From assembly GCF_000421485.1 (NCBI RefSeq), contig NZ_ATXC01000001.1, positions 620,001 through 684,000 of the forward strand: DNA of 64,000 bases, read 5' to 3'. Shown here one piece after another: positions 15,578 through 29,709 of this stretch. The notes under the pieces were generated by a model. The model saw nothing but the letters and a program-made list of their open reading frames with translations, did no database searches and was not told the DNA's origin. Position 1 is the stretch's first letter. Each line of letters begins with the position of its first letter. The position numbers and the translations under genes are program-made. The DNA comes from Desulfurobacterium sp. TC5-1. Lineage in GTDB: Bacteria; Aquificota; Aquificia; Desulfurobacteriales; Desulfurobacteriaceae.

Positions 15578-17296
15578 ATGATAGAAGCAATTTATAACCT
15601 TGGAAAAATTTTAATGCAGGATGACGGCAATTCCGGCAAAGTAACGCCAGAGCCGGTCAGCGCAGACAGATTAATAATCATAAACCTTGATAAGGATGGA
15701 AAGCTTATTAACGTTACAGATACAAAAAATGTATCCGAATACGAAAAAAAACTACTTTATAAAAGAGTAAGAGCCTCCAGACGATGCAATTCCTGCACTC
15801 CCACATTCTTTCTGAACATAAAAGAACCGCAAAAAAGCATAACCTGCTTAAAGTCCATCTTTAACTGGATGAAAAACTATAACAGTTCGGTTAAAGAACC
15901 AGAAGACTATGAAGCAATTCTCAAAGCACTGAAAAGTTACCTGAAAGACTTTCCTCCGCAAAGCAGAGAAAAGATTCTTCTTACCGTTACCGTGGACGGG
16001 AATTTCCCCTCAGAAATTCCGGAGATAGTTAGCGCATTTGAAACCGGCTATGTTCAAGAACTTGGATTTAACGAAATCGGAACATGTTCTCTGTGCGGCA
16101 GCACTACCAGAATTACAGGGAAAAAATCCCCCTTTGCCTTTTACACACTTGATAAAGTGGGCTACATTTCAGGCTTTTCAACTAAAAATCACGGGAAAGG
16201 ATTCCCGATATGTTTTGAATGTTTCAAAAAGCTGGAAAAAGCCAAACAGTACATATCAAGCAGAAGTTTTATTTTAACCAAAAACGCTCCCAGATACTGG
16301 CTCGTCCCAGGTGTTATTTTTGACACAGAAACTTCTGACAGTAACTCACTCAAAGAACTCATTGAAAACATTTACGACCTGGAATACATGAAAAAGTATC
16401 TTCATTTAACAGAAACGGAACATCAAAAACTTGCAGATACAGAAGAAGATATTCTGGACATACTGAAAGAGCTTGAGGACTATCTCACATTCCACTTTAT
16501 TTTTATTGAAAAGAACCAATCTCAGGAAATCATTAAACTGCATATCCAGGACATCTATCCTTCAAGAATAAAAAAGCTTTTCGAAGCCAAAACCCACGTT
16601 GAAAAGAACCTGGAACTTAAAAGAGAATTCACTTTCGGCACTTTAGGTCAGTTTTTCTGGAAATGGGATAAGCACTCTAAAAGGAAAGACCTGCAGAAAT
16701 ATTTCCTTGATCTCATTGACCGGATATTTCGGGAAGTCCCTTTCTCAGAAGCCCTGCTCATAAAGTTCTTGCTTAATGGAATAAGACGAGCTTACCTTGA
16801 CGAAGAATACGATAAATTAACAGCACTCAATGCTTTAGCATCGTTCCTGTTTGTTAAAGCAACTACGGAGGGAATAATGGAAACTATCAAAACCGACGAC
16901 GTCAGGAATTTATTAGAAACTCTACCTCTGCTAAATACACCGGAAGCAAAAGGATTATTTGTCCTCGGAGTCCTGACACAGCGCCTGATTGACAAGCAGG
17001 CTGGAACCAGAAAAGGCAACAAACCTTTCCTTAAAAAACTTTCCAGCTTTAAACTGGACCAGAGAGGCTTTGAAAAATTGATGCCTGAACTGAGAGACAA
17101 AATGGAAGCCTACGAAATTTTTGGAAAATTTGAAAGGGAACTGTTTGACCTGGCTTCAGAATGTTTTGCTAAAGCCAACCAGCCCTGGAAACTTAATGTT
17201 GAAAAGATGAACTTTGTATTTGCAGTCGGCATGGGAATGAAGGACAAAATCTACAATAAAAAATTTGAGAACAAAACTGATGGAGGTAAATCATGA
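15578..17296 (+). CDS. cas8b: Type I-B Cascade large subunit Cas8b (Csh1)
   Basis: Large subunit that recognises the PAM in type I-B Cascade. 572 residues. Two cysteine pairs, C170-x2-C173 (GTCSLCGS) and C212-x2-C215 (ICFECF), form the zinc ribbon of the Csh1 family. A further pair C70/C73 sits near the N-terminus. The helical C-terminal half (about 330-550) includes LLIKFLLNGIRRAYL and the KLNVEKMNFVFAVGMGM ending typical of Csh1. It starts at the base after the stop of the type III module, and the frame is joined to cas7 by an ATGA overlap, so both effector modules lie on one transcript. Confidence 0.82.
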   Translation: MIEAIYNLGKILMQDDGNSGKVTPEPVSADRLIIINLDKDGKLINVTDTKNVSEYEKKLLYKRVRASRRCNSCTPTFFLNIKEPQKSITCLKSIFNWMKNYNSSVKEPEDYEAILKALKSYLKDFPPQSREKILLTVTVDGNFPSEIPEIVSAFETGYVQELGFNEIGTCSLCGSTTRITGKKSPFAFYTLDKVGYISGFSTKNHGKGFPICFECFKKLEKAKQYISSRSFILTKNAPRYWLVPGVIFDTETSDSNSLKELIENIYDLEYMKKYLHLTETEHQKLADTEEDILDILKELEDYLTFHFIFIEKNQSQEIIKLHIQDIYPSRIKKLFEAKTHVEKNLELKREFTFGTLGQFFWKWDKHSKRKDLQKYFLDLIDRIFREVPFSEALLIKFLLNGIRRAYLDEEYDKLTALNALASFLFVKATTEGIMETIKTDDVRNLLETLPLLNTPEAKGLFVLGVLTQRLIDKQAGTRKGNKPFLKKLSSFKLDQRGFEKLMPELRDKMEAYEIFGKFERELFDLASECFAKANQPWKLNVEKMNFVFAVGMGMKDKIYNKKFENKTDGGKS

Positions 17297-18210: not shown

Positions 18211-18983
18211 TTGCTTTTGATATATGGGGAGAACTGGCACACTTCAGGCGGTTTTTTACCACTTCTTCTCCCCTCACTTTCTCTTTTCCGCCGCCAACAA
18301 CCGTTAGGGGAATAATCGGAGCCATTTTAGGACTTCAAAAAAATGAATACATAGAAATTACAAATCGGTTAAGTATCGGAATATATATCACTTCCCCTAT
18401 CAGGAAGCTAAGAACCGGGCTAAACATAATTTTCACCAAGGGAAGCGGTGGGAAATTTGAACCAACGCTTTTTAAAGATAAAAAGGGAGATGTTAAAAAA
18501 ACCGTTAGAACGCAAATTCAAGTAGAATTCCTGAAAGATCCTGGTTACAGGATTTTCGTAGCCGGTGACGAAAAACTTCTTGATTCCCTTTTGAACTATC
18601 TGCCGTACCACAAGACAGAATACACTGTTTCCCTTGGTCTTTCTGAATGCCTTGCCGATTTTAAATTTGCAGGTGAATTTACCGCTGAAGAAGTAGAAGA
18701 AACGAGCGAAATACATTCAGCAATACCAACAAGAAAAATAAAAAACATCAGCTTAAGCAACCAGATTAAACTGGCTAAAGAGAGAATTCCCATATATATG
18801 AACGCAGAAAGAATTGTTCAGGAATATGACAATATTGTATTTGAAACCAGCGGTAAACCAATTAAGGGAGCTTTTAAAAATGTCTTCCACATTAAAGAGA
18901 CCGGAGAAAACGTTCACCTGTTTACTGTCCCATCCCAACAAATGTCTAAAAGATCATTTGAAAAAGACGCAAAATCTGGTTGA
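18195..18983 (+). CDS. cas5: Type I-B Cascade subunit Cas5
   Basis: Binds the 5' handle of crRNA in Cascade. The opening FDIWGELAHFRRFFTTSSPLTFSFPPPTTVRGIIGAILG region is textbook Cas5h/Cas5b. The family end, a GENVHLF-like strand, falls near base 18925. The remaining roughly 20 residues (TVPSQQMSKRSFEKDAKSG) are read from DNA that also encodes the start of Cas3, so the overlap of about 104 bases is unusual. The original stop may have been lost or a small indel is present. It overlaps cas7 by 16 bases. Confidence 0.88.
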   Translation: MACRIIAFDIWGELAHFRRFFTTSSPLTFSFPPPTTVRGIIGAILGLQKNEYIEITNRLSIGIYITSPIRKLRTGLNIIFTKGSGGKFEPTLFKDKKGDVKKTVRTQIQVEFLKDPGYRIFVAGDEKLLDSLLNYLPYHKTEYTVSLGLSECLADFKFAGEFTAEEVEETSEIHSAIPTRKIKNISLSNQIKLAKERIPIYMNAERIVQEYDNIVFETSGKPIKGAFKNVFHIKETGENVHLFTVPSQQMSKRSFEKDAKSG

Positions 18984-21189
18984 AAAATACTTTCCTTATA
19001 ACGACAACACGGCTAAAGAACTTGCCGCTTACGCTGCAAGGTTCCACGACGCAGGTAAAGCAACATCGTTTTTCCAGGAATACATAAAAGGAAACGGAAA
19101 ATGGTCAAAAGAAAAGAACCATTCACTCCTCTCTGCTGTTATTCTTTATTACTATTTGAGAAAAATTAGAGGTATAAGTCCTTTACAGGCATTTCTTTCT
19201 TTTCTCGCAGTAAAAAAACACCATTCATTTCCGGAAGACACGTTTGAAAACGGCGGTATAATCAATGACACAGAACTGATAAAAAAACAACTTAATGCTA
19301 TTTCAAAAGATAATATCAAAGAACTTGGAATTCCTGTTACTGTTCAAGAACTAAAAGAATCCATCAATGACATAATCAAAGAATTAAAATATTTCAGAAG
19401 TCTAAGGAGATTTAAAAGAAATTTTGGAGAAATAGAGAACTTTTCAATATATACAACTTTTTTATCAATATATTCCTCTCTTCTTTTCTCCGATAGAAAA
19501 GATGCTGTTGATGCTCCTGAAGTAAGTTTCCCGGACATTCCTTATGAAAAGTTTAAAAATTTGATTGATTCCATTCCTTTAAAACGGCCAATAGATGAAA
19601 AAAGACAGGAAGCAAAAGAATTTGTGCTTTCTAAAGAATTCAATCTGAAACAGCGAATCTACTCAATAAACCTCCCAACGGGTTTAGGAAAAACTTACAC
19701 AGGATTTTTACAAGCACTCAAAATGAAAAAAATTCTAAAGGAAAAAACGGGCAAAAGTTTCAGGATAATATACGCATTACCCTTTATTTCCATTATTGAC
19801 CAAAACTTCGAAGTACTAAAAGAAAAACTTGAACAAATTATAGACAGCACAGATTCCAGACTGATTTTAAAACACCACCACCTCAGCAACTTTGAATATT
19901 TAACTAACAATTCTGAAATCCTTCCTTTTGACATCGCAAAAGTATTAACAGAAGGTTGGGAAAGTGAAATTACTATTACCACAATAGTGCAAATATTTAA
20001 TGCAATCTTTCCAAAAAACCGAAGCCAGGCACTTCGCTTTTCCAGACTTCAGAATACCATAATTATTCTTGATGAAATTCAAACTATACCTGTTAAATAT
20101 TGGAAAATTTTTAATGAAATCATTGAGGATTTATCAAAAAAACTTGATTTCTACATAATATTTATGACAGCAACAAAGCCAGCAATATTTACCAACCATA
20201 CAGAACTTGCAGGTGGAAAATTTTTTACAGGACTCAACCGATACGAAATAGAAATAGATCTGAAAGAACGTACCATAGAAGAATTTTTAGAAAAAATTGA
20301 CATTAACATTGAGAAAAGTCATTTGTTTATCCTTAACACAGTAAAGTCCTCCCAGGAAGTTTATAAAAAGTTAAGTGAAACAATCAACGGAGAAATTGAA
20401 TACCTGTCAAGAGCAATTACACCATTTGAGAGGAGGGAAAGGCTCAAAAAAATTAGAGAGGGAAAAGTCAAATATCTAATTTCCACTCAAATTGTAGAAG
20501 CAGGAGTTGACATAGATTTTGATGTAGTTATAAGAGATTTTGCTCCTTTTGATTCCCTTAATCAATCAGCAGGAAGGTGCAACAGAAACGGAGAAAAAGC
20601 AGGACTGTTTAAAATCATAAAATTAATTGATGAAAATAATCAACGTCCATACTGGAGCTACATATACGATCCCATCCTTTCTTCAGCCACTATGGAAATC
20701 CTAAAAGATAAACACCGTCTAACAGAAGAAGAATTTATAAAATTGACTGAAAAGTATTTCAATCTTGTTAAAGACAGAGCCACAGACGAAGCAAAAACTG
20801 TAAAACCTTTTTTCGAAGCTGTTAAGTATCTACGATTTCAACCCATGGAAAATTATAGATGCAAGGAAAATGAAAAATTTATTTGCGACATGAACCTTAT
20901 TGAAGAAGACTGTGGAGAGGAAATTTTTGTTCAACTTAATGAAGAAGCGGTTGAAATATGGAATAAAATGATAGAAATTGTCACAAAGTTAAAAAAAGGA
21001 AACCGTGAAGCATTTAAAGATTACCTGCGAATTAAGCATAAGTTCTACGATTTCGTAATAAAGGTGAATTTAAACAAAAAAATACCAATACCGATATCAA
21101 AAGAGCTTGGTTTTTACTTCATTCCAATAGAAGAATTAGACAATTATTATGATAAAACAGGACTTAAAGAACCTAATCTAATCTGGTAA
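18880..21189 (+). CDS. cas3: Cas3 HD nuclease-helicase (type I-B)
   Basis: Recruited by Cascade to unwind and degrade target DNA. I start at ATG 18880 (AAGGGAG upstream, residues MSSTLKRPEK), because LLSHPNKCLKDH that follows is the usual Cas3 N-terminus. The HD nuclease domain has H18, FHDAGK (H56-D57) and KKHHSFPED near residue 112. The helicase has Walker A LPTGLGKT (265-272), motif II DEIQ (398-401), motif III FMTATKP and motif VI QSAGRCNRNG (from 562). All catalytic residues are present in 769 residues. The start lies well inside cas5. Confidence 0.92.
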   Translation: MSSTLKRPEKTFTCLLSHPNKCLKDHLKKTQNLVEKYFPYNDNTAKELAAYAARFHDAGKATSFFQEYIKGNGKWSKEKNHSLLSAVILYYYLRKIRGISPLQAFLSFLAVKKHHSFPEDTFENGGIINDTELIKKQLNAISKDNIKELGIPVTVQELKESINDIIKELKYFRSLRRFKRNFGEIENFSIYTTFLSIYSSLLFSDRKDAVDAPEVSFPDIPYEKFKNLIDSIPLKRPIDEKRQEAKEFVLSKEFNLKQRIYSINLPTGLGKTYTGFLQALKMKKILKEKTGKSFRIIYALPFISIIDQNFEVLKEKLEQIIDSTDSRLILKHHHLSNFEYLTNNSEILPFDIAKVLTEGWESEITITTIVQIFNAIFPKNRSQALRFSRLQNTIIILDEIQTIPVKYWKIFNEIIEDLSKKLDFYIIFMTATKPAIFTNHTELAGGKFFTGLNRYEIEIDLKERTIEEFLEKIDINIEKSHLFILNTVKSSQEVYKKLSETINGEIEYLSRAITPFERRERLKKIREGKVKYLISTQIVEAGVDIDFDVVIRDFAPFDSLNQSAGRCNRNGEKAGLFKIIKLIDENNQRPYWSYIYDPILSSATMEILKDKHRLTEEEFIKLTEKYFNLVKDRATDEAKTVKPFFEAVKYLRFQPMENYRCKENEKFICDMNLIEEDCGEEIFVQLNEEAVEIWNKMIEIVTKLKKGNREAFKDYLRIKHKFYDFVIKVNLNKKIPIPISKELGFYFIPIEELDNYYDKTGLKEPNLIW

Positions 21190-21190
21190 T

Positions 21191-21694
21191 ATGGAATTAG
21201 AGAAAATTTTTGTAAACGGAACACTCATCTGGTATTACTACATTTGCAAAAGGGAGGTATGGCTTATTGCTCACGGAATAGAAGCAGAGCAGGATAACGA
21301 TTTCATCGCCGTCGGAAGGCTGATTCACGAAAAAAGATATAAGAACAAAGCAAAAGAGCTGTTGATAGACAATAAAATAAAAATAGACCTTCTTGAAAAC
21401 AGAAAAGTGATCGGTGAAATTAAGAAAAGTTCAAGGTTTTTAAAAAGTGCAAAGATGCAGCTTGCATTTTATCTGTATTACATAAAAGAACAGAAAGGAG
21501 AACTTTTAACGGGAGAGCTTTTCATTCCCGAAGAGAGAAAAAGAATACAGGTTAAACTGAGCAAAAAGCTTGAAGAAGAAATCAAAAAGACCATAAAGGA
21601 AATAGAAAGGATAATTGATCTTCCCCATCCTCCGCCGGCTAAAAAAATCAGATTTTGCAGAAACTGCGGATATAGAGAATTTTGCTGGAGTTGA
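21191..21694 (+). CDS. cas4: Cas4 Fe-S nuclease of CRISPR adaptation
   Basis: Trims prespacers and selects PAM orientation with Cas1-Cas2. 167 residues, RecB-like. C19 (YYICKREVWL) and the C-terminal trio FCRNCGYREFC supply the four cysteines for a 4Fe-4S cluster. The nuclease core is GRLIHEKRY, VIGEIKKSS and MQLAFYLYY. Starts at ATG 21191, two bases after the cas3 stop. Confidence 0.92.
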   Translation: MELEKIFVNGTLIWYYYICKREVWLIAHGIEAEQDNDFIAVGRLIHEKRYKNKAKELLIDNKIKIDLLENRKVIGEIKKSSRFLKSAKMQLAFYLYYIKEQKGELLTGELFIPEERKRIQVKLSKKLEEEIKKTIKEIERIIDLPHPPPAKKIRFCRNCGYREFCWS

Positions 21695-21696
21695 AG

Positions 21697-22671
21697 ATGA
21701 AACAGCCCTTAATAATATTCAAAAGCGGAACAATAAAAAGGGAACAAAACACAATATTTTTTATTGAATACGAAGGTAGAAAGCATGTAATACCCGTTGA
21801 AGCCATATCCGAAATTGAAATTTTCGGTGAAGTCACCCTTAACAAAAGGGCTCTGGAATTTTTCTCAAAAGCCAAAATACCAATTCACTTTTACAACTAC
21901 TACGGATATTACGTCGGGACATACTATCCGAGAGAACACCTGAACTCGGGATATGTAATCCTAAAGCAGGCGGAACACCATCTTGACCCCGACCTCAGAC
22001 TTTTCCTCGCAAAAATGTTCGTTTATGGAGCCTACAGAAACATAAGACAAAATCTCAAAAACTACGACCGTGACAAAAGTGTAGAAGAAATAGATGCTTT
22101 CGCAGACAAAATAGAAGACACAAAGAACATACAAGAACTAATGGCTATTGAAGGTAACATAAGAGAAACCTACTATAAAAACTTTAATAATATTCTAAAG
22201 CAATTCAATTTTAATAAGAGGCAGAAAAGACCTCCCGATAATGAAATCAATGCCTTGATTAGTTTTGGCAACACACTCCTTTATACAAAAGTCCTATCGG
22301 AAATCTATTTTACCCATCTTGATCCCCGCATAGGGTACCTTCACCAGACAAACAACCGGAGTTTCACTTTAAATCTTGATATTGCTGAAATCTTCAAACC
22401 CATCATTGTTGACAGAGTTATTTTTTCCCTTGTAAACAAAAAAGTAATAAACAAAAAACATTTTGAAATTGAAGCCGGAACTTGCTTTTTAAACGAAGAA
22501 GGTAAAAGAATATTCGTAAAAGCCTTTGAAGAACGCCTCAAAAACACGATAAAGCACAGAAAGTTAAACAGAAAAGTTTCCCTGCAAAGACTCATAAGAT
22601 TGGAATGCTACAAACTGATTAAACATCTTATAGAAGATGAAGTCTATGAACCTTTTATAACGAGGTGGTGA
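21697..22671 (+). CDS. cas1: Cas1 integrase (type I-B)
   Basis: Integrates new spacers at the leader end. The start is ATG 21697 (CTGGAG upstream), giving 324 residues. Metal-binding residues are E152 (MAIEGNIRETYY), H216 (GYLHQTNNRSF) and E231 (NLDIAEIFKP). The N-terminal beta domain and the KIPIHFYNYYGYYVGTYYPRE junction are typical of Cas1 from I-B loci. Immediately follows cas4 and is coupled to cas2 by TGATG. Confidence 0.95.
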   Translation: MKQPLIIFKSGTIKREQNTIFFIEYEGRKHVIPVEAISEIEIFGEVTLNKRALEFFSKAKIPIHFYNYYGYYVGTYYPREHLNSGYVILKQAEHHLDPDLRLFLAKMFVYGAYRNIRQNLKNYDRDKSVEEIDAFADKIEDTKNIQELMAIEGNIRETYYKNFNNILKQFNFNKRQKRPPDNEINALISFGNTLLYTKVLSEIYFTHLDPRIGYLHQTNNRSFTLNLDIAEIFKPIIVDRVIFSLVNKKVINKKHFEIEAGTCFLNEEGKRIFVKAFEERLKNTIKHRKLNRKVSLQRLIRLECYKLIKHLIEDEVYEPFITRW

Positions 22672-22937
22672 TGTTCGTAATTTTAGTCTATGATGCCGGT
22701 GAAAAAAGGGTGCAAAAATTTTTAAAAATATGCCGCAAATACCTTGTTCACGTCCAAAACTCTGTATTTGAAGGAGAACTAACAGAAGCAACACTGAGAA
22801 TGCTTACGGAAGAACTTAAAACGATAATGAATGATGAAGAAGACTCCGTTCTAATCTACAAATTTCGGACAAAAAAATATTACGAAAGAATAAGCATAGG
22901 AATAGAGAAACCGTCCCACGAAAGTTTCATGTTTTAA
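22671..22937 (+). CDS. cas2: Cas2
   Basis: Structural partner of Cas1 in spacer acquisition. An 88-residue ferredoxin-fold protein starting MFVILVYDAGEKRVQKFLKICRKYL, with the D9 of VYD and the QNSVFEGEL motif. The ATG overlaps the cas1 TGA. Last gene of the operon; the CRISPR leader begins right after it. Confidence 0.95.
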   Translation: MFVILVYDAGEKRVQKFLKICRKYLVHVQNSVFEGELTEATLRMLTEELKTIMNDEEDSVLIYKFRTKKYYERISIGIEKPSHESFMF

Positions 22938-23079: not shown

Positions 23080-23392
23080 GAATATAAATCTTGACGTTCT
23101 TTGAAAAAAGAATAAGTTTTAAAATAGGTTTTAAGCGTACCTCTAAGGAATTGAAACCATAGATAGAAGTATCGGATATAATAGCTCTTACAAGTTTTAA
23201 GCGTACCTCTAAGGAATTGAAACGGTAGTGGAAGGATAAGGAAGGTAAGAATAAAGAAGAGAGTTTTAAGCGTACCTCTAAGGAATTGAAACTAATAGAA
23301 GGTGTTAAGCAAGTTCTGACATCTTTTTTGTTTTAAGCGTACCTCTAAGGAATTGAAACATGAATAGGTATAGAAATAATTTATACATTAGA

Positions 23393-25380
23393 GTTTTAAG
23401 CGACTCAAGGAATGAACTAATAAAAAAGTAATTATACAATTTTGTTATTTAGAGTTTTAAGCGTACCTCTAAGAATGAAACTATAGGCTGTGAGTAAATT
23501 GCAGGGATTATAGTTTAAGCGTACCTCTAAGGAATTGAAACATTTTTAATGAGGTCATCCAAATGAAAAAAGTTTAAGCGTCCTCTAAGGAATTGAAACT
23601 ACTCTGATCTCTAATATCCCAGATTTATGAGGTTTTTAAGCGTACCTCTAAGGAATTGAAACGCCGTTATTTGATTTCTCTGTAGTGGTAATGGAATTTT
23701 TAAGCGTACCTCTAAGGAATTGAAACTCAGCATTAGTAAGGGATTGAACAAGGGAATGTTTAAGCGTACCTCTAAGGATTGAAACGGGACGATAAAAAGA
23801 AGTTTCGACAGCAGATACTGTTTTAAGCGTACTCTAAGGAATTGAAACTGTCTTTGCCCAGTCAGCACCCAAACGCTCAGTTTTAAGCGTACCTCTAAGA
23901 ATTGAAACTGCCATGAGTATCTGCAAAAACTTTCTCTGATAGGGTTTAAGCGTACCTCTAAGGAATTGAAACAGAGAAAACCATCTGCAGGAAGACCAAA
24001 AACATGTTTTAAGCGTACCTCTAAGGAATTGAACCAAATGAAAAAAGGCAAGGGCAAGAACCCCGTTTTTAAGCGTACCTCTAAGGAATTGAAACTATTC
24101 AACGCCAAAACAGTTTTTGACTGATGAAAAGGTAACGTACTCTAAGAATGAAACTAGATATGAATTTCTGCCAGTATGGCGATTTCGAGTTTTAAGCGTA
24201 CCTCTAAGGAATTGAACAAATATAAGGAACATTCTGAGACTTCTAACATTCTGGTTTTAAGCGTACCTCTAAGAATTGAAACTTTCTCACGTTCTTTCAT
24301 TCTTCTTCCTGTCGCCTTGTTTTTAGCGTACCTCAAGAATGAACTCCGCAACATCCCCGAAAATCACTTTTCAATTGTTTTAAGCGACCTCTAAGGAATT
24401 GAAACATTTTCCATGTCTGCTTCAGAAATCCCAGCTCTGTTTTTAAGCTACTCTAAGGAATTAAACTGTATAAGCAACGATTTAGAATCATGCCAGTCGT
24501 TTTAACGTACTCTAAGGAATTGAACACGTTGCATTGCGAACGGGAATCCGCTTTTTTTGTGTTTAAAGCGTACCTCTAAGGAATTGAACCGCATTTTCAA
24601 ACGATGAGGAAAGATCAAAAGGAAAGTTTAAGCGTACCTCTAGGATTGAACTTTTTCTACACCTTCACACTACGATAGGTCAACAGTTTTAGCGTACCTC
24701 TAAGGATTGAAACGCAACTGCAATCGTGAGGTTGGAGCTTCCGGGTTTTAAGCGTACTCTAAGGAATTGAAACCCATTGTAAGCAGGTTTGCCTGCATAC
24801 TTTCCGGGAGAAGGTTTTAAGCGTACCTCTAAGGAATGAAACTAGTGACAAGGAACATACGGCGGTGGCGTATCAGTTTTAAGCGTACCTCAAGATTGAA
24901 ACCAACTTGCTGAGAAATGAAATCACGAATCTTGAGTTTAAGCGTACTCTAAGGAATAAAAAAACTTTTTGTTCCGAAAAAGAAAATGCTGTTTTAAGCG
25001 TACCTCTAAGGAATTGAAACATAAAGGAGGAACAGCCTATAATACACTTCGGAAGTGTTTAACGTACTCTAAGGAATAAACTGCGGAGTTGCCTCGTCGC
25101 GAGAGCTCTGTTTAAGCGTACCTCTAAGGATTGAACTTTTGATCAAAGACTCTTCTCGCGCCTTTAAGTTTAAGCGTACCTCAGAATTGAACCTTGATGA
25201 GCTTCTGCCGAAGAGCTTCGCTTATACTCGTTTAACGTACCTCTAAGAATTGAAACTTATACTACTTACTTCAAGTATCGCTTGGTCTGATTGTTTAAGC
25301 GTACTCAAGGATTGAAACCACCTCCTTGTTTTGTTTTCATCCCCGTCTGGATCGTTTAAGCGTACCACTAAGGAATTGAA
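23393..25380 (+). repeat. Tract of deletion-type CRISPR repeats inside the array
   Basis: About 33 successive repeats lie here and most lack bases. Examples are CTCT shortened to CT, GG to G, TTTT to TTT and CC to C; one copy keeps only GCGACTCAAGGAATGAAC of its core. Substitutions are almost absent. The spacers here are probably affected too. Uncorrected single-molecule sequence in a region short reads could not reach is the simplest explanation; true decay is the alternative. Confidence 0.7.
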
Positions 25381-26922
25381 ACTTTAGATTCATACAGGCT
25401 ACTTGCTCTAAATCATAGCGGTTTTAAGCGTACCTCTAAGGAATTGAAACTTGCGCTTCCAGTGTCAAGAGCGATAAAGAAGCGTGTTTTAAGCGTACCT
25501 CTAAGGAATTGAAACCAAGCCTGTAAGATGTTATCAGGGCAAAGGTTGTTTTGTTTTAAGCGTACCTCTAAGGAATTGAAACATAAGGCGCTATCTGCAC
25601 GGGCGGCCGGTATGAATCCTGGTTTTAAGCGTACCTCTAAGGAATTGAAACGAGCAAAGACAGCAAGAGCTTGATTACCTAAAAACGTTTTAAGCGTACC
25701 TCTAAGGAATTGAAACTGACCTGCTTGCAAAGTTCTTTCTTTTAAAGGAGAAGTTTTAAGCGTACCTCTAAGGAATTGAAACTAGCTATTGGAACTAAGA
25801 TTCTGGATATGGCTGAGAGTTTTAAGCGTACCTCTAAGGAATTGAAACTGTTGAGGTTCCTGAAAAGCTGTTTGATGAAATCCTGTTTTAAGCGTACCTC
25901 TAAGGAATTGAAACTTCATGTGCTTTGGTCTGTGAAATACGCTGTGAACGGTTTTAAGCGTACCTCTAAGGAATTGAAACTCGGACAAAGGCGACGGGAC
26001 AAAACCGTATATACACGTTTTAAGCGTACCTCTAAGGAATTGAAACAAGTAGTAGATACCATTTCACAAAAATACACGGGTGTGTTTTAAGCGTACCTCT
26101 AAGGAATTGAAACAGAACCCGCATATATCCAACTATGTCAACAATGGCAGGTTTTAAGCGTACCTCTAAGGAATTGAAACTAGAGAAGAAATTCAACGTC
26201 AAAATACCGGACACCCCAGTTTTAAGCGTACCTCTAAGGAATTGAAACACTGCTAAAGATAAAGCTGAAAAGGTGAAAGAGTTTGAGGTTTTAAGCGTAC
26301 CTCTAAGGAATTGAAACTACATTTCACCACGTTCATTTTTCTTTTTAATTTCTGTTTTAAGCGTACCTCTAAGGAATTGAAACGAAATTCAACACAACCG
26401 GCGTTTTTAATCGATATAGACAGTTTTAAGCGTACCTCTAAGGAATTGAAACAGCTCCTCAAAGGGAAACCGAGTATGCCAAGCCAGTGTTTTAAGCGTA
26501 CCTCTAAGGAATTGAAACCTCTGATGCCGAAAAGCCACCCGAAGGCACGAGGGAGTTTTAAGCGTACCTCTAAGGAATTGAAACTACTGAGTCATGGCTA
26601 TCTCTTTGTATCGCCGCTGAAGGGTTTTAAGCGTACCTCTAAGGAATTGAAACAAGAAGCCCGAAAGGTTTTCGGCCTTGGAAATCATTGCGTTTTAAGC
26701 GTACCTCTAAGGAATTGAAACAGGTCATCTTCTGTAACGGTTCCACCTACAACGATGAGTGTTTTAAGCGTACCTCTAAGGAATTGAAACGCCGAGTGCA
26801 CACAGACCGGAACCATCGGAAACGGCGTTTTAAGCGTACCTCTAAGGAATTGAAACTCAGATTTTCTACGATCCTAATCCTCAGGATGTTGAGTTTTAAG
26901 CGTACCTCTAAGGAATTGAAAC

Positions 26923-27054
26923 AAGCAGGCTTTCTATCTTTCAGCCTATCGTTAGAGAGTTTTAAGCGTACCTCTAAGGAATTGAAACAAGCAGGCTTTC
27001 TATCTTTCAGCCTATCGTTAGAGAGTTTTAAGCGTACCTCTAAGGAATTGAAAC
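26923..27054 (+). repeat. Tandem duplication of one spacer-repeat unit
   Basis: The 36-base spacer at 26923-26958 (begins AAGCAGGCTTTC) is repeated exactly at 26989-27024, each followed by a perfect repeat. This is a duplication of one 66-base unit, by recombination between repeats or by assembly. Confidence 0.9.
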
Positions 27055-27590
27055 AACTTTCTGGAGGATTATCTCTATTTGCACTAAGTTCAGTTTTAAG
27101 CGTACCTCTAAGGAATTGAAACAGAAAATTAGGCGGAAACTCATAATAACGTTTTACAATTTCGTTTTAAGCGTACCTCTAAGGAATTGAAACTGCAGAA
27201 ATCTCCACAAGCGAGTCGGCACCTTTCATGTTTTAAGCGTACCTCTAAGGAATTGAAACTTTCTTTAAAGTCCGGCGTTACATCTTCCGGAAGTTTCGTT
27301 TTAAGCGTACCTCTAAGGAATTGAAACAATCAACTTTCGGCGGAAAAGCGCCAGGAAGCTTTAGAGTTTTAAGCGTACCTCTAAGGAATTGAAACTCCTG
27401 CTGTATTAGGCTTGCAAAGCGTTTTGGAACATCTCGTTTTAAGCGTACCTCTAAGGAATTGAAACGAAAGTCAGGGTATTCTTTCAGCTGTTCCTCTATA
27501 GTTTTAAGCGTACCTCTAAGGAATTGAAATTACTTTTCGTTTTAAACTGGTAAAGAAAAAGATGAGAAATTTGTTAGTTTATACTAATAG

Positions 27591-27618
27591 TTGAATCATG
27601 CTAGACTCAGGTTAAATT
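27591..27618 (+). promoter_or_regulatory. Possible promoter of the structured RNA
   Basis: TTGAAT (27591-27596) and TAAATT (27613-27618) are 16 bases apart in the A+T-rich stretch just past the array. Transcription from here would start within a few bases of the GC-rich folded element. Confidence 0.35.
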
Positions 27619-27621
27619 TTA

Positions 27622-27731
27622 TTAGTAAGCGGTGGTGAAAGCCAGAAAGTCGCCCTGGCTGGCTGGGCGGGTCCTCCTGAGTGGAGGATTCGTTCTATGG
27701 AGGGGGTGGGCGTCCTCCCACCACCGCCTAA
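27622..27731 (+). ncRNA. Candidate structured RNA: closing stem with three hairpins
   Basis: A G+C-rich island of about 100 bases in A+T-rich DNA, a common mark of structured RNA in thermophiles. By eye GCGGTGGTG (27629-27637) pairs exactly with CACCACCGC (27719-27727), extended by TTAG/CTAA across a small bulge. Inside are three hairpins. AGCCAG (27640-27645) pairs with CTGGCT (27655-27660). TCCTCC (27672-27677) pairs with GGAGGA (27683-27688). GGAGG (27699-27703) pairs with CCTCC (27714-27718). The result is a four-way, cloverleaf-like junction. No reading frame crosses it convincingly. It lacks the conserved loop of SRP RNA and matches no riboswitch I know. Strand is uncertain; plus is favoured by the promoter-like sequence. 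Confidence 0.55.
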
Positions 27732-27826
27732 CTTAGTTTAATTTACATTTCAATTAACGGGGATATTTTAGATTTAGGATTTCTATAAACCCAGAGAAAG
27801 GTGGAAATCTTATACCGGAGTGGAAA

Positions 27827-28084
27827 ATGAAAATTATCAAAAATCCTGCCACGGTAGAAGATAGGGATTTGGCAAGGGCTTACAAGATAGCTTTAAAGTT
27901 CTTTGCAGAAAGGGGTTTTAAGGTAAAAAAAGTAAGGATGGGTATTTCTCCTTTTGCCCCTACTCATAAAAAATCAATGATAGTCGAAATTTCGCCGGCT
28001 CCCAAACACATTGTTGATCTTGTTCATCTAAAGCAAGACCTACAAAAAAGAATAGGTAAGAAAGTTGGGGTTACCCTGGTATGA
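27827..28084 (+). CDS. Unknown 85-residue protein, copy 1
   Basis: Starts MKIIKNPATVEDRDL, with CGGAG seven bases before the ATG. It is alpha/beta in appearance, with an invariant MGISPFAPT segment and a C-terminal helix ending KKVGVTLV. No signal peptide, cysteines or known motif. A second copy at 29437-29709 shares about 51 of 85 residues by hand alignment, and the first 15 residues are identical. The upstream DNA is also shared (GAAAGGTGGAAATC, CCGGAG, GGAAAATGAAAATT), so the duplication included the translation-start region. I do not recognise the family. Confidence 0.7.
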   Translation: MKIIKNPATVEDRDLARAYKIALKFFAERGFKVKKVRMGISPFAPTHKKSMIVEISPAPKHIVDLVHLKQDLQKRIGKKVGVTLV

Positions 28085-28103
28085 AAAAAATTTCCTGACA
28101 AAA

Positions 28104-28133
28104 ATTTAAAGCATACCTCTAAAGAACGGAAAA
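28104..28133 (+). repeat. Isolated degenerate CRISPR repeat, relic 1
   Basis: The stretch contains GCATACCTCTAAAGAACGG. Against the last 23 bases of the repeat consensus 18 match, in the same orientation as the array and about 570 bases beyond its end. It lies 20 bases after the stop of the unknown 85-residue gene. No second repeat follows at normal spacer distance. Confidence 0.6.
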
Positions 28134-28138
28134 TTGTT

Positions 28139-29032
28139 GTGAATTTCACAGGGTTTGACGCCGCAGAAAAAAGTAAAAGAAAAACTTGCCGGGGCGATAG
28201 AAAAAAACTTAAAGAGTAACCACATAAGCTGGGAGCAAAACTGCCACCTGATGACCCATTCTCCCCCAACCAATTTAACCACCATTCAACAGTAAGAGCG
28301 ATTTTTAAAGGTTCCAATGAGGCGAAAAAGATTAGGAAAAGGAAACCAAAAGACATTTCGCCGGTTCCTGAAAGATTTGACGCAAGTCCATTGGAAAGCT
28401 GGTGGAAGTTAACGGACTCTATGGCCAGGAGAATCGTAGAATACGGAGCGAAAGATGAGGTTCTGGAAAAGGCTAAGAAGCTCTGCCAGAAAAACTTTGC
28501 CGATGAGTGCCCAGAGTGGGAAGAGGTTAAGAGGTTGATTGAGAAATACAACAGAAGACGAGAAGTTTTGAAGAAACTTATTGGAGAAGAACGCACTCCA
28601 AAGGTCAGGCTTATAGACGGCCGGATTGCTGATGTCAAAAAAGGGCCAGGAATGGGTAAGGAGTAAGGTTGTTGAGGTGTTTGAGGATGAGCTTGGTAAT
28701 AAGTATTATCTTTCGGAATTTCATCTCAGGAGACACTTGCTTCGCGATAATTTGAACAAACTCAAAAAAACTGGCATCACAACGGAAAAAGCAGTCATAT
28801 TTTTCATTAGAAATTTTTCATTAGAAAGACCTTCAAGGAACCGCAAGTGATAATTCACGATACTGAAGAAAATGCAATTCTTTTCGGAAGAAAGTCACCT
28901 TCAGACCAATTCGTTATGTTGCCTGTAGCAGGTTTGGATAGTGGTAGAATAGAGACAATCTTGGTGAGAAGGACTAAATTCCAAAATGTGAAACGTTATA
29001 AAGTGCTTTATAGCGAGGTAGAGGGATGGTAA
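28139..29032 (+). pseudogene. Frameshifted gene, possibly phage-derived
   Basis: Pieces in alternating frames read as one protein of roughly 290-300 residues. In order they are FTGFDAAEK, then VKEKLAGAIEKN, then KLPPDDPFSPNQF through RLIDGRIADV, then KKGQEWVRSKVVEVFEDELG through FIRNFSLE, then RKTFKEPQVIIHDTEEN through YSEVEGW. Joins fall near 28165, 28230, 28640 (within AAAAAAGGG) and 28820. Either a decayed gene or sequencing indels. The final domain, with GRIETILVRRTKFQ, vaguely recalls the barnase/EndoU/RelE-like nuclease domains at the ends of phage head-morphogenesis proteins. That is only a guess. Confidence 0.5.
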
Positions 29033-29376
29033 CTGTTCTTCACTTTGAAGATAGGGAACTTGCTTTTGCTCTTGATTCAGGAATGGAAGGTGAAGGGGTT
29101 GATTTTTCTGGGGAGTTTGGAGATAACATCTACGACAACAATGGAGTAATTTGTTTTTACAACTATGCTTTTCGCTCTCTCAATGGAGAGGGTAACATCT
29201 TTAAAGAGCTGGAAAACTTGGTAAAAGATACTACACTTTTTGAAAACCAAATCAAAGGTCGTTACACCGTTCCAGAACTCGGCGTAGAAAACGCCACTTT
29301 CAAAGAAGTTCTTGAAGCAGTGAAGAGGTATTACGAAGCTAAACTCTCACAAAAATGGCCTGCTAAAACATTTTAA
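29026..29376 (+). CDS. Unknown 116-residue acidic protein
   Basis: Starts at ATG 29026 behind GAGGTAGAGGG, overlapping the end of the broken gene. The sequence MVTVLHFEDRELAFALDSG is followed by an acidic, aromatic-rich middle (GEFGDNIYDNNG) and a helical C-terminus (FKEVLEAVKRYYEAKLSQKW). No recognised motif. Its stop lies inside or next to a relic of the CRISPR repeat. If the preceding gene is phage-like, this may be too. Confidence 0.55.
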   Translation: MVTVLHFEDRELAFALDSGMEGEGVDFSGEFGDNIYDNNGVICFYNYAFRSLNGEGNIFKELENLVKDTTLFENQIKGRYTVPELGVENATFKEVLEAVKRYYEAKLSQKWPAKTF

Positions 29377-29398
29377 TCTACCTCGAAGAAATTAAAAT
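29370..29398 (+). repeat. Isolated degenerate CRISPR repeat, relic 2
   Basis: The 29-base stretch beginning ATTTTAATCTACCTCGAAG matches the repeat consensus at about 23 of 30 positions with one gap, in array orientation. It sits just before the second copy of the 85-residue gene. With relic 1 it brackets the broken gene and its neighbour. Confidence 0.6.
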
Positions 29399-29436: not shown

Positions 29437-29709
29437 ATGCCGGAGCGGAAAATGAAAATTATCAAAAATCCTGCCACGGTAGAAGATAGAGACCTTAAAA
29501 AAGCCTATGAACTTGCCTTAAAGTTTTTAGAAAGTGAAAGGTATAAGATAGAAAAAGTTAAAATGGGCATTTCACCTTTCGCACCAACTTACGAAAAGTT
29601 TATGATTATTCATATAACACCATCGCCTAAAAAAATATCTGAACTTATAGAGTTAGAAGACAAACTTCAGAAAAAAGCAGGAAAAGAGGTGGGAATTTCT
29701 TTATCATGA
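29437..29709 (+). CDS. Unknown 85-90-residue protein, copy 2
   Basis: Paralogue of the gene at 27827. It can begin at ATG 29437 (MPERKMKIIKN, after AAAGGTGG) or, like copy 1, at ATG 29452. In copy 1 the equivalent of the first ATG is ATA, which favours the shorter form as ancestral. The conserved blocks KNPATVEDRDL, KMGISPFAPT, P-x-P-K and GK-x-VG are kept while the helices differ, so both copies look to be under selection rather than freshly duplicated. Confidence 0.7.
   Translation: MPERKMKIIKNPATVEDRDLKKAYELALKFLESERYKIEKVKMGISPFAPTYEKFMIIHITPSPKKISELIELEDKLQKKAGKEVGISLS

Follow-up and report, generated by a model that had tools for sequence, protein, structure and literature searches.

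What is encoded by the short GC-rich element at the distal end of a CRISPR array in Desulfurobacterium sp. TC5-1, and to which of its neighbors does it belong? The window analyzed here is the whole stretch of 64,000 nucleotides (contig NZ_ATXC01000001.1, positions 620,001 to 684,000 of the forward strand; coordinates below count from its first letter), in which cas genes at 18814-22937 lie upstream of a plus-strand array (Rfam CRISPR-DR2) at 23128-27530. A preliminary description had proposed a cloverleaf-like RNA at this site, linked to the CRISPR system or to a mobile element, or else serving as a cis-regulatory leader of a small gene at 27827.

A Structured RNA at the Distal End of the Array

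Positions 27629-27727 of the plus strand encode a very stable RNA with a four-way junction, located, as had been described, just beyond the last CRISPR repeat (27501-27530). The nine-pair closing stem reported earlier (GCGGTGGTG/CACCACCGC, 27629-27637 with 27719-27727) is present and encloses three hairpins, namely arm 1 (27640-27664), arm 2 (27665-27695), which is variable in sequence with its pairing kept, and arm 3 (27699-27718). The loops of arm 1 (CGCCC, 27651-27655) and arm 3 (GGGCG, 27708-27712) are predicted to form a kissing contact, being complementary in all eight family sequences. On the plus strand, the segment 27600-27760 folds at −66.9 kcal/mol (z −4.65), a stability reached by none of 200 dinucleotide shuffles, and the fold of the minus strand is weaker (−52). 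The composition is likewise as first noted, with 58% GC in a 100-base frame at the RNA against 26–41% in the surrounding A+T-rich DNA. The RNA occurs as a single copy in the Desulfurobacterium sp. TC5-1 genome. It had been left without a match to any known RNA family, and a scan of Rfam 15 agrees, giving no family at gathering thresholds and nothing credible down to an E-value of 10; ARAGORN did not call the RNA as a tRNA, and a tmRNA scan was likewise empty.

A promoter-like sequence upstream had also been suggested. This stands as far as the boxes themselves are concerned (TTGAAT-16-TAAATT, 27591-27618, plus strand, about 10 nt before the RNA, read from the sequence), although a consensus scanner gave the window copy no score. 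The position of the boxes is constant in all relatives while their sequence varies (TTGCAG-17-TATCAT in G019, G004, G010, and G013), and the scanner flags the orthologous TTTGCA-18-TATCAT in L036, the G019 version, and lists only that kind. No terminator-like site or T-tract was found at the RNA on either strand in a scan of the window and the L036 copies.

Covariation and Strand

Covariation among homologs, which the preliminary description had proposed to look for, was found in two sets of sequences. Among the eight Desulfurobacteriaceae RNAs, seven pairs have changed on both sides, with a covariation of 0.230 vs. 0.03–0.09 in slid controls, and arm 2, the central arm, occurs in several sequence versions that retain the pairing. 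In a diverse set of ten members, two-sided changes affect 12 of 23 pairs and the covariation is 0.386 vs. 0.04–0.10 in slid controls. Included among these 12 is one compensatory change in the kissing pair, from CG to GC in L108; the loop contact reads CGCC with GGCG in the ten-member alignment and CGCG with CGCG in L108. From this alignment, the predicted closing stem gains support, as do arms 1 and 3 with their loop-loop contact; covariation overall backs all three arms.

The RNA strand is more stable than its complement in nine of the ten diverse members, and the covariance model R1 scores 108.5 bits on the RNA strand vs. 19.3 bits on the complement. A protein-coding reading was rejected, since the loop of arm 2 varies in length by 1–4 nt, which breaks every frame while the pairing is kept, and therefore no reading frame is conserved. 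Within the family, two versions of arm 2 and two versions of the promoter occur in all four combinations (L006/L036-L041/L047), pointing to recombination within the RNA locus.

Homologs Lie in Mu-Like Transposable Phages

A DNA search of 60 relatives returned six clear homologs, all from Desulfurobacteriaceae and 78–95% identical, and a covariance search of 136 Aquificota genomes found the RNA only in Desulfurobacteriaceae (7 of 136), adding none to those from the DNA search. In all, seven homologs of the RNA are present in other Desulfurobacteriaceae genomes or phages. In four of them (G004, G015, G010, and G019), the RNA meets a Phage_Mu_F gene tail-to-tail at the 3′ end of the latter. This minor-head gene, hereafter gpF, is preceded by a Mu-type portal gene in G004 (contig 1) and G015; G004 also has sheath and capsid genes. 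The record IMGVR_UViG_2890528774_000002 (G061) is a nearly whole phage of 39 kb with a MuA-like transposase, MuB, a repressor, a terminase, and a tape measure protein.

In the relatives, no further feature separates the RNA from a repeat block of about 150 bp (GTAAAGAAAAAGATGAGAAAT and variants), after which unrelated host DNA begins. The intact relatives have several such terminal repeats over about 150 bp, which resemble transposase-binding ends, and in the Desulfurobacteriaceae phages the distance from the RNA to the phage end is a few hundred bp. This order of RNA, repeat block, and host DNA is the anatomy expected of the end of a transposable phage, as read at one end, the contigs breaking at the left end. 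The relatives thus have the genes and repeats of a Mu-like phage (MuA, MuB, Mu-type portal/gpF, and terminal repeats), whereas the window copy is only a remnant. Of the origins first suggested for the RNA, the link to a mobile element was borne out, the RNA being a gene of Mu-like transposable phages.

Nucleotide-similarity searches of known phages and plasmids gave chance matches only. RNAs of the same plan lie at the gpF end in L112, in L116, and in Pseudomonas phage B3, where the RNA is found mid-genome, at 18971-19056 of 38439 (NC_006548.1). In two IMG/VR phages with distantly related gpF C-termini (34–38% identity), the RNA at the gpF end has the same plan and loop sequences. B3ORF34 (NC_006548.1, 18980-19078), annotated as a hypothetical protein of 33 amino acids, lies partly over the RNA gene and is probably a spurious annotation. 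With a covariance model, the RNA was found in phage B3 and in many proteobacterial phages, and the family thus spans phages of Aquificota and Proteobacteria. We consider it almost certain that the RNA is real and of phage origin, and it belongs to a new structured RNA family of phages without an Rfam entry.

The Phage Remnant and the CRISPR Array

By comparison with these relatives, the window copy is what remains of a Mu-like transposable phage that had integrated into the CRISPR array; a terminal repeat, the promoter region, the RNA itself, and some 70 bp of gpF persist. The remnant starts 19 bases past the last CRISPR repeat with the outermost phage end, represented by one terminal repeat (27550-27570, plus strand). 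At its other side is the 3′ end of gpF (27727-27796, minus strand), truncated and frameshifted by a 7-bp deletion according to a by-eye comparison with the gpF 3′ ends of G010 and G061. The RNA between them is intact and identical to that of G019.

Two degenerate CRISPR repeats on the plus strand beyond the remnant, at 28105-28134 (score 18) and 29370-29398 (score 17), each exceed the maximum of 15 obtained from 60 shuffles, and show that the array once continued past the remnant. Between these two repeats, at 28140-29376 (plus strand), sequence comparison identified a decayed piece of another, distinct Mu-like phage, with a gpF similar to that of G004 contig 28. An ORF at 29026-29376 (116 amino acids), overlapping and downstream of the frameshifted gpF of this second phage, looks like an immunity-type partner, and on G004 contig 28 (L076 2-2077) the gpF of the second Mu-like phage seems to be split by an intein-like LAGLIDADG insertion. 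Further, two small genes at 27827-28084 and 29437-29709, which lie between or beside the degenerate repeats, are duplicates of 85–90 amino acids that are about 61% identical; they occur in only some Desulfurobacteriaceae and have no Pfam or PHROG match.

The first of these small genes is the one for which the RNA had been considered a possible leader. This reading was rejected, as the constant neighbor of the RNA is gpF and the gene is not tied to the RNA, its homolog in G013 lying beyond the phage end, on the host side. The suggested CRISPR link, in a functional sense, was abandoned as well: the phage is inserted in or beside the array, and CRISPR-linked function is rejected on the ground that the homologs of the RNA follow gpF, not arrays or cas genes. 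A CRISPR-associated RNA such as a tracrRNA, a scoutRNA, or an anti-CRISPR repeat mimic was rejected too, only the array's own repeats matching CRISPR models.

CRISPR arrays do recur as insertion sites. Three of the seven readable host junctions of the phage lie in or at CRISPR arrays (the window, G015, and G061), a fourth (G019) adjoins degenerate CRISPR repeats, and the window array also holds the second phage fragment; the sites where phage ends and CRISPR sequences meet are 27501-29398 in the window, L038 1-420, L047 11780-12450, and L036 735-1135. About 0.3% of the window genome consists of arrays found with this repeat, and even at 1% a share of three in seven has a probability of about 3e-5, to be read as the answer to a question posed post hoc. 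The simplest reason for these insertions is low target specificity combined with selection, which might favor dispensable sites or the disabling of immunity. In lysogens of the Mu-like phage DMS3, CRISPR regions were lost by transposition (PMC11406979). When 60 spacers from three arrays were compared with the phage, no full-length match was better than the reversed-spacer controls.

Linkage of the RNA to gpF

To avoid circularity, IMG/VR was scanned by an RNA motif alone, 15 bases in length, and the 120 stretches listed were scored with the model R2. At least 15 matches scored 61–91 bits and the next 23 bits among the stretches listed, some of the 15 being records used for R2 or near relatives of these. 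In all 14 of the listed matches with a long enough contig, the RNA is convergent with the 3′ end of gpF, at a gap of −32 to +10 nt, and the gpF protein carries the same C-terminal domain (domain HMM E-values of 3e-67 to 7e-18). With the protein domain as the starting point in the reverse direction, B3, L107, L108, L112, L116, and G061 all carry the RNA, with the qualification that L107, L108, L112, L116, and B3 also served to build R2.

Every phage examined of this gpF subfamily has the RNA, except Pasteurella phage AFS-2018a. There, a related gpF is followed by a different tRNA-like cloverleaf of 75 nt (L109 at about 1903-1977; MH238466.1 at about 16052-16126, minus strand), closed by a stem of 8 bp and bearing a canonical tRNA T-loop (CCTG TTCGAAT CAGG), which is neither called as a tRNA nor recognized by the RNA model. 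In phage Mu, which served as a control, gp30 and G overlap by 4 nt, leaving no gap and no RNA. More distant gpF relatives in IMG/VR are also without the RNA, and the two of them scanned with Pfam show only the MuF domain; ten PBECR3 loci, apparently of other architectures, in 385 alphaproteobacterial genomes (the class of L079) have no such RNA. These RNA-less PBECR3 loci limit the link to the MuF subfamily, and the link could reflect common ancestry of one phage module. Within these bounds, linkage of the RNA to gpF is very probable.

A Predicted RNase Domain in gpF

The gpF gene encodes a MuF domain and directly follows the portal gene, the arrangement by which MuF polymorphic toxins are recognized. 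In Pfam, its C-terminus scores above the cut-off as PBECR3 only in Desulfurobacteriaceae, and elsewhere gives a weak match to MuF_C. An invariant His, Lys, Asp, and Asn together with Thr/Ser are present in all 14 gpF C-termini, and this combination is the published signature of active PBECR RNases (PMC5512222). PBECR domains are predicted to act as RNases on host, phage, or CRISPR RNAs, and the PBECR domain of phage Mu has been described as inactive (PMC5512222).

An AlphaFold model built from the domain alignment reached a pLDDT of 90 and consists of a helix and a mixed sheet, the helix preceding 4–5 strands, compared with a pLDDT of 37 when gpF was folded from a single sequence. Entries from contact-dependent-inhibition toxin systems take the first, second, and fourth places among the structural matches, at low Z-scores of 4.2, 2.8, and 2.7; Foldseek with the domain model gave no significant match (E above 0.3), and a PDB sequence search with the gpF domain returned nothing. 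With fold matches this weak, the RNase assignment rests on the family and the residues, from which the gpF C-terminus is predicted to be a toxin-type RNase domain of the PBECR type with conserved active-site residues. A small immunity ORF directly 3′ of gpF is absent, and the slot holds the RNA (B3ORF34, at 33 amino acids, only overlaps it).

Comparison with Known Systems

Type III toxin-antitoxin systems, such as ToxIN, CptIN, and TenpIN, tie a structured RNA to an endoribonuclease, and the present RNA is likewise genetically tied to a predicted endoribonuclease. However, it is a single convergent RNA 3′ of gpF, without tandem repeats and without a shared operon upstream; the protein domain is of the BECR type on a virion protein, as opposed to ToxN, and the RNA is a cloverleaf instead of an H-type pseudoknot. 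The packaging RNA (pRNA) of phi29 is a further phage RNA with paired ends and complementary loops, features that recur here, but the present RNA has a four-way junction and lies beside gpF instead of at a fixed genome end, in phages that have ordinary terminase subunits.

The likeness to tRNA is in the general plan, comprising a closing, acceptor-like stem, a two-base linker, a D-like arm, a long middle arm, and a T-like arm that abuts the stem, with the loops of arms 1 and 3 in contact. The RNA differs from tRNA in having no CCA end and a long, variable second arm without an anticodon loop, and, together with the negative ARAGORN and Rfam results, these differences led us to reject its identity as a tRNA.

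The closest protein-side comparison is to MuF polymorphic toxins, with which gpF shares its place after the portal gene, a predicted nuclease at the C-terminus, and a dedicated element at the 3′ end, although this element is here a convergent structured RNA and not a small ORF (PMC5576092). A search of the available literature found no report of a MuF protein with an RNA antitoxin, nor of this RNA.

Possible Functions of the RNA

It has been proposed that MuF toxins reach the target cell together with phage DNA, and 89% of their genes have a small putative immunity ORF downstream (PMC5576092). We infer, by analogy, a course of delivery, toxicity, binding, and protection, in which gpF with its RNase domain would enter the target cell along with the phage DNA, the RNA would fill the immunity-gene slot 3′ of gpF, and the RNA would bind the RNase domain, either inhibiting it or acting as a decoy that resembles tRNA, thereby shielding the lysogen or the producing cell. 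The putative promoter of the RNA would point inward, that is, away from the host junction or, in B3, from the next late gene, and with an inward promoter of its own the RNA could be transcribed in lysogens during the silence of the late genes. The position in the slot of the immunity ORF and the separate promoter together favor an RNA immunity factor or decoy. The orientation counts against an immunity role, since immunity genes usually share the direction of the toxin gene and the RNA runs toward gpF. We put this proposal forward tentatively: that the RNA confers immunity to the gpF RNase, or serves it as a tRNA-like decoy, is possible, at clearly less than an even chance. Taken as a whole, a phage RNA family tied to gpF in combination with an RNase-inhibitor mechanism is the best explanation of the data, and one to which we give slightly less than even weight.

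The same linkage to gpF would also be seen if the RNA were a partner of the RNase instead of its inhibitor, serving as a substrate, a cofactor, or a virion cargo that guides or restrains the cleavage of host RNA until release. A scaffold that is strongly conserved in sequence, next to an arm 2 that varies freely, is consistent with such a role, as is the prediction that PBECR domains act on host, phage, or CRISPR RNAs (PMC5512222). However, the RNA's own promoter and its direction, against that of the late operon, speak for expression separate from the late program, and we consider a partner role unlikely.

The convergent layout, with an overlap of up to 32 nt with gpF, and the promoter-like boxes on the RNA strand might alternatively suggest that the RNA regulates gpF and the late operon in the lysogen as a cis-antisense or 3′-end element, or that it shapes the end of the gpF mRNA, in either case without protein contact. 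This is quite unlikely, as pure antisense control needs no conserved fold and leaves the covarying stems and kissing loops unexplained, together with the specificity for a gpF with an apparently active PBECR domain; the absence of a terminator-like site from both strands also speaks against it.

The tRNA-like plan, the tRNA T-loop of the Pasteurella element (TTCGAAT), and the three of seven phage junctions that adjoin CRISPR arrays could each be taken to indicate a decoy against host defense, such as one aimed at tRNA-cutting or CRISPR nucleases, for which the gpF module is no more than a vehicle. The strict association with a single gpF subfamily, in phages whose hosts differ widely, is difficult to reconcile with such a decoy, and likeness to host CRISPR repeats was not noticed, making this role very unlikely in our view. 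Finally, it is highly improbable that the element acts as DNA or as a transcription barrier, such as a GC-rich cruciform or insulator that marks the end of the phage or follows the gpF operon: it has strong inverted repeats and in the Desulfurobacteriaceae phages is within a few hundred bp of the phage end, but it is mid-genome in phage B3 and lacks a T-tract, G-U pairs favor one strand as RNA, and the loop-loop complementarity is kept.

Implications

The RNA family described here is absent from Rfam, is supported by covariation, and accompanies a single phage gene in phages of both Aquificota and Proteobacteria, among them the laboratory phage B3. Returning to the immunity factor or decoy, we propose, more tentatively still, that the family may be a widespread class of tRNA-like phage RNAs that neutralize MuF-borne RNase toxins co-injected with the DNA. 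If inhibition of the gpF RNase is true, the RNA would represent toxin immunity in RNA form, and polymorphic toxins would have RNA as well as protein immunity. It would also provide a first handle on the role of PBECR domains in phage head proteins, for which the C-terminal domain of phage Mu gpF poses a puzzle of a similar kind.
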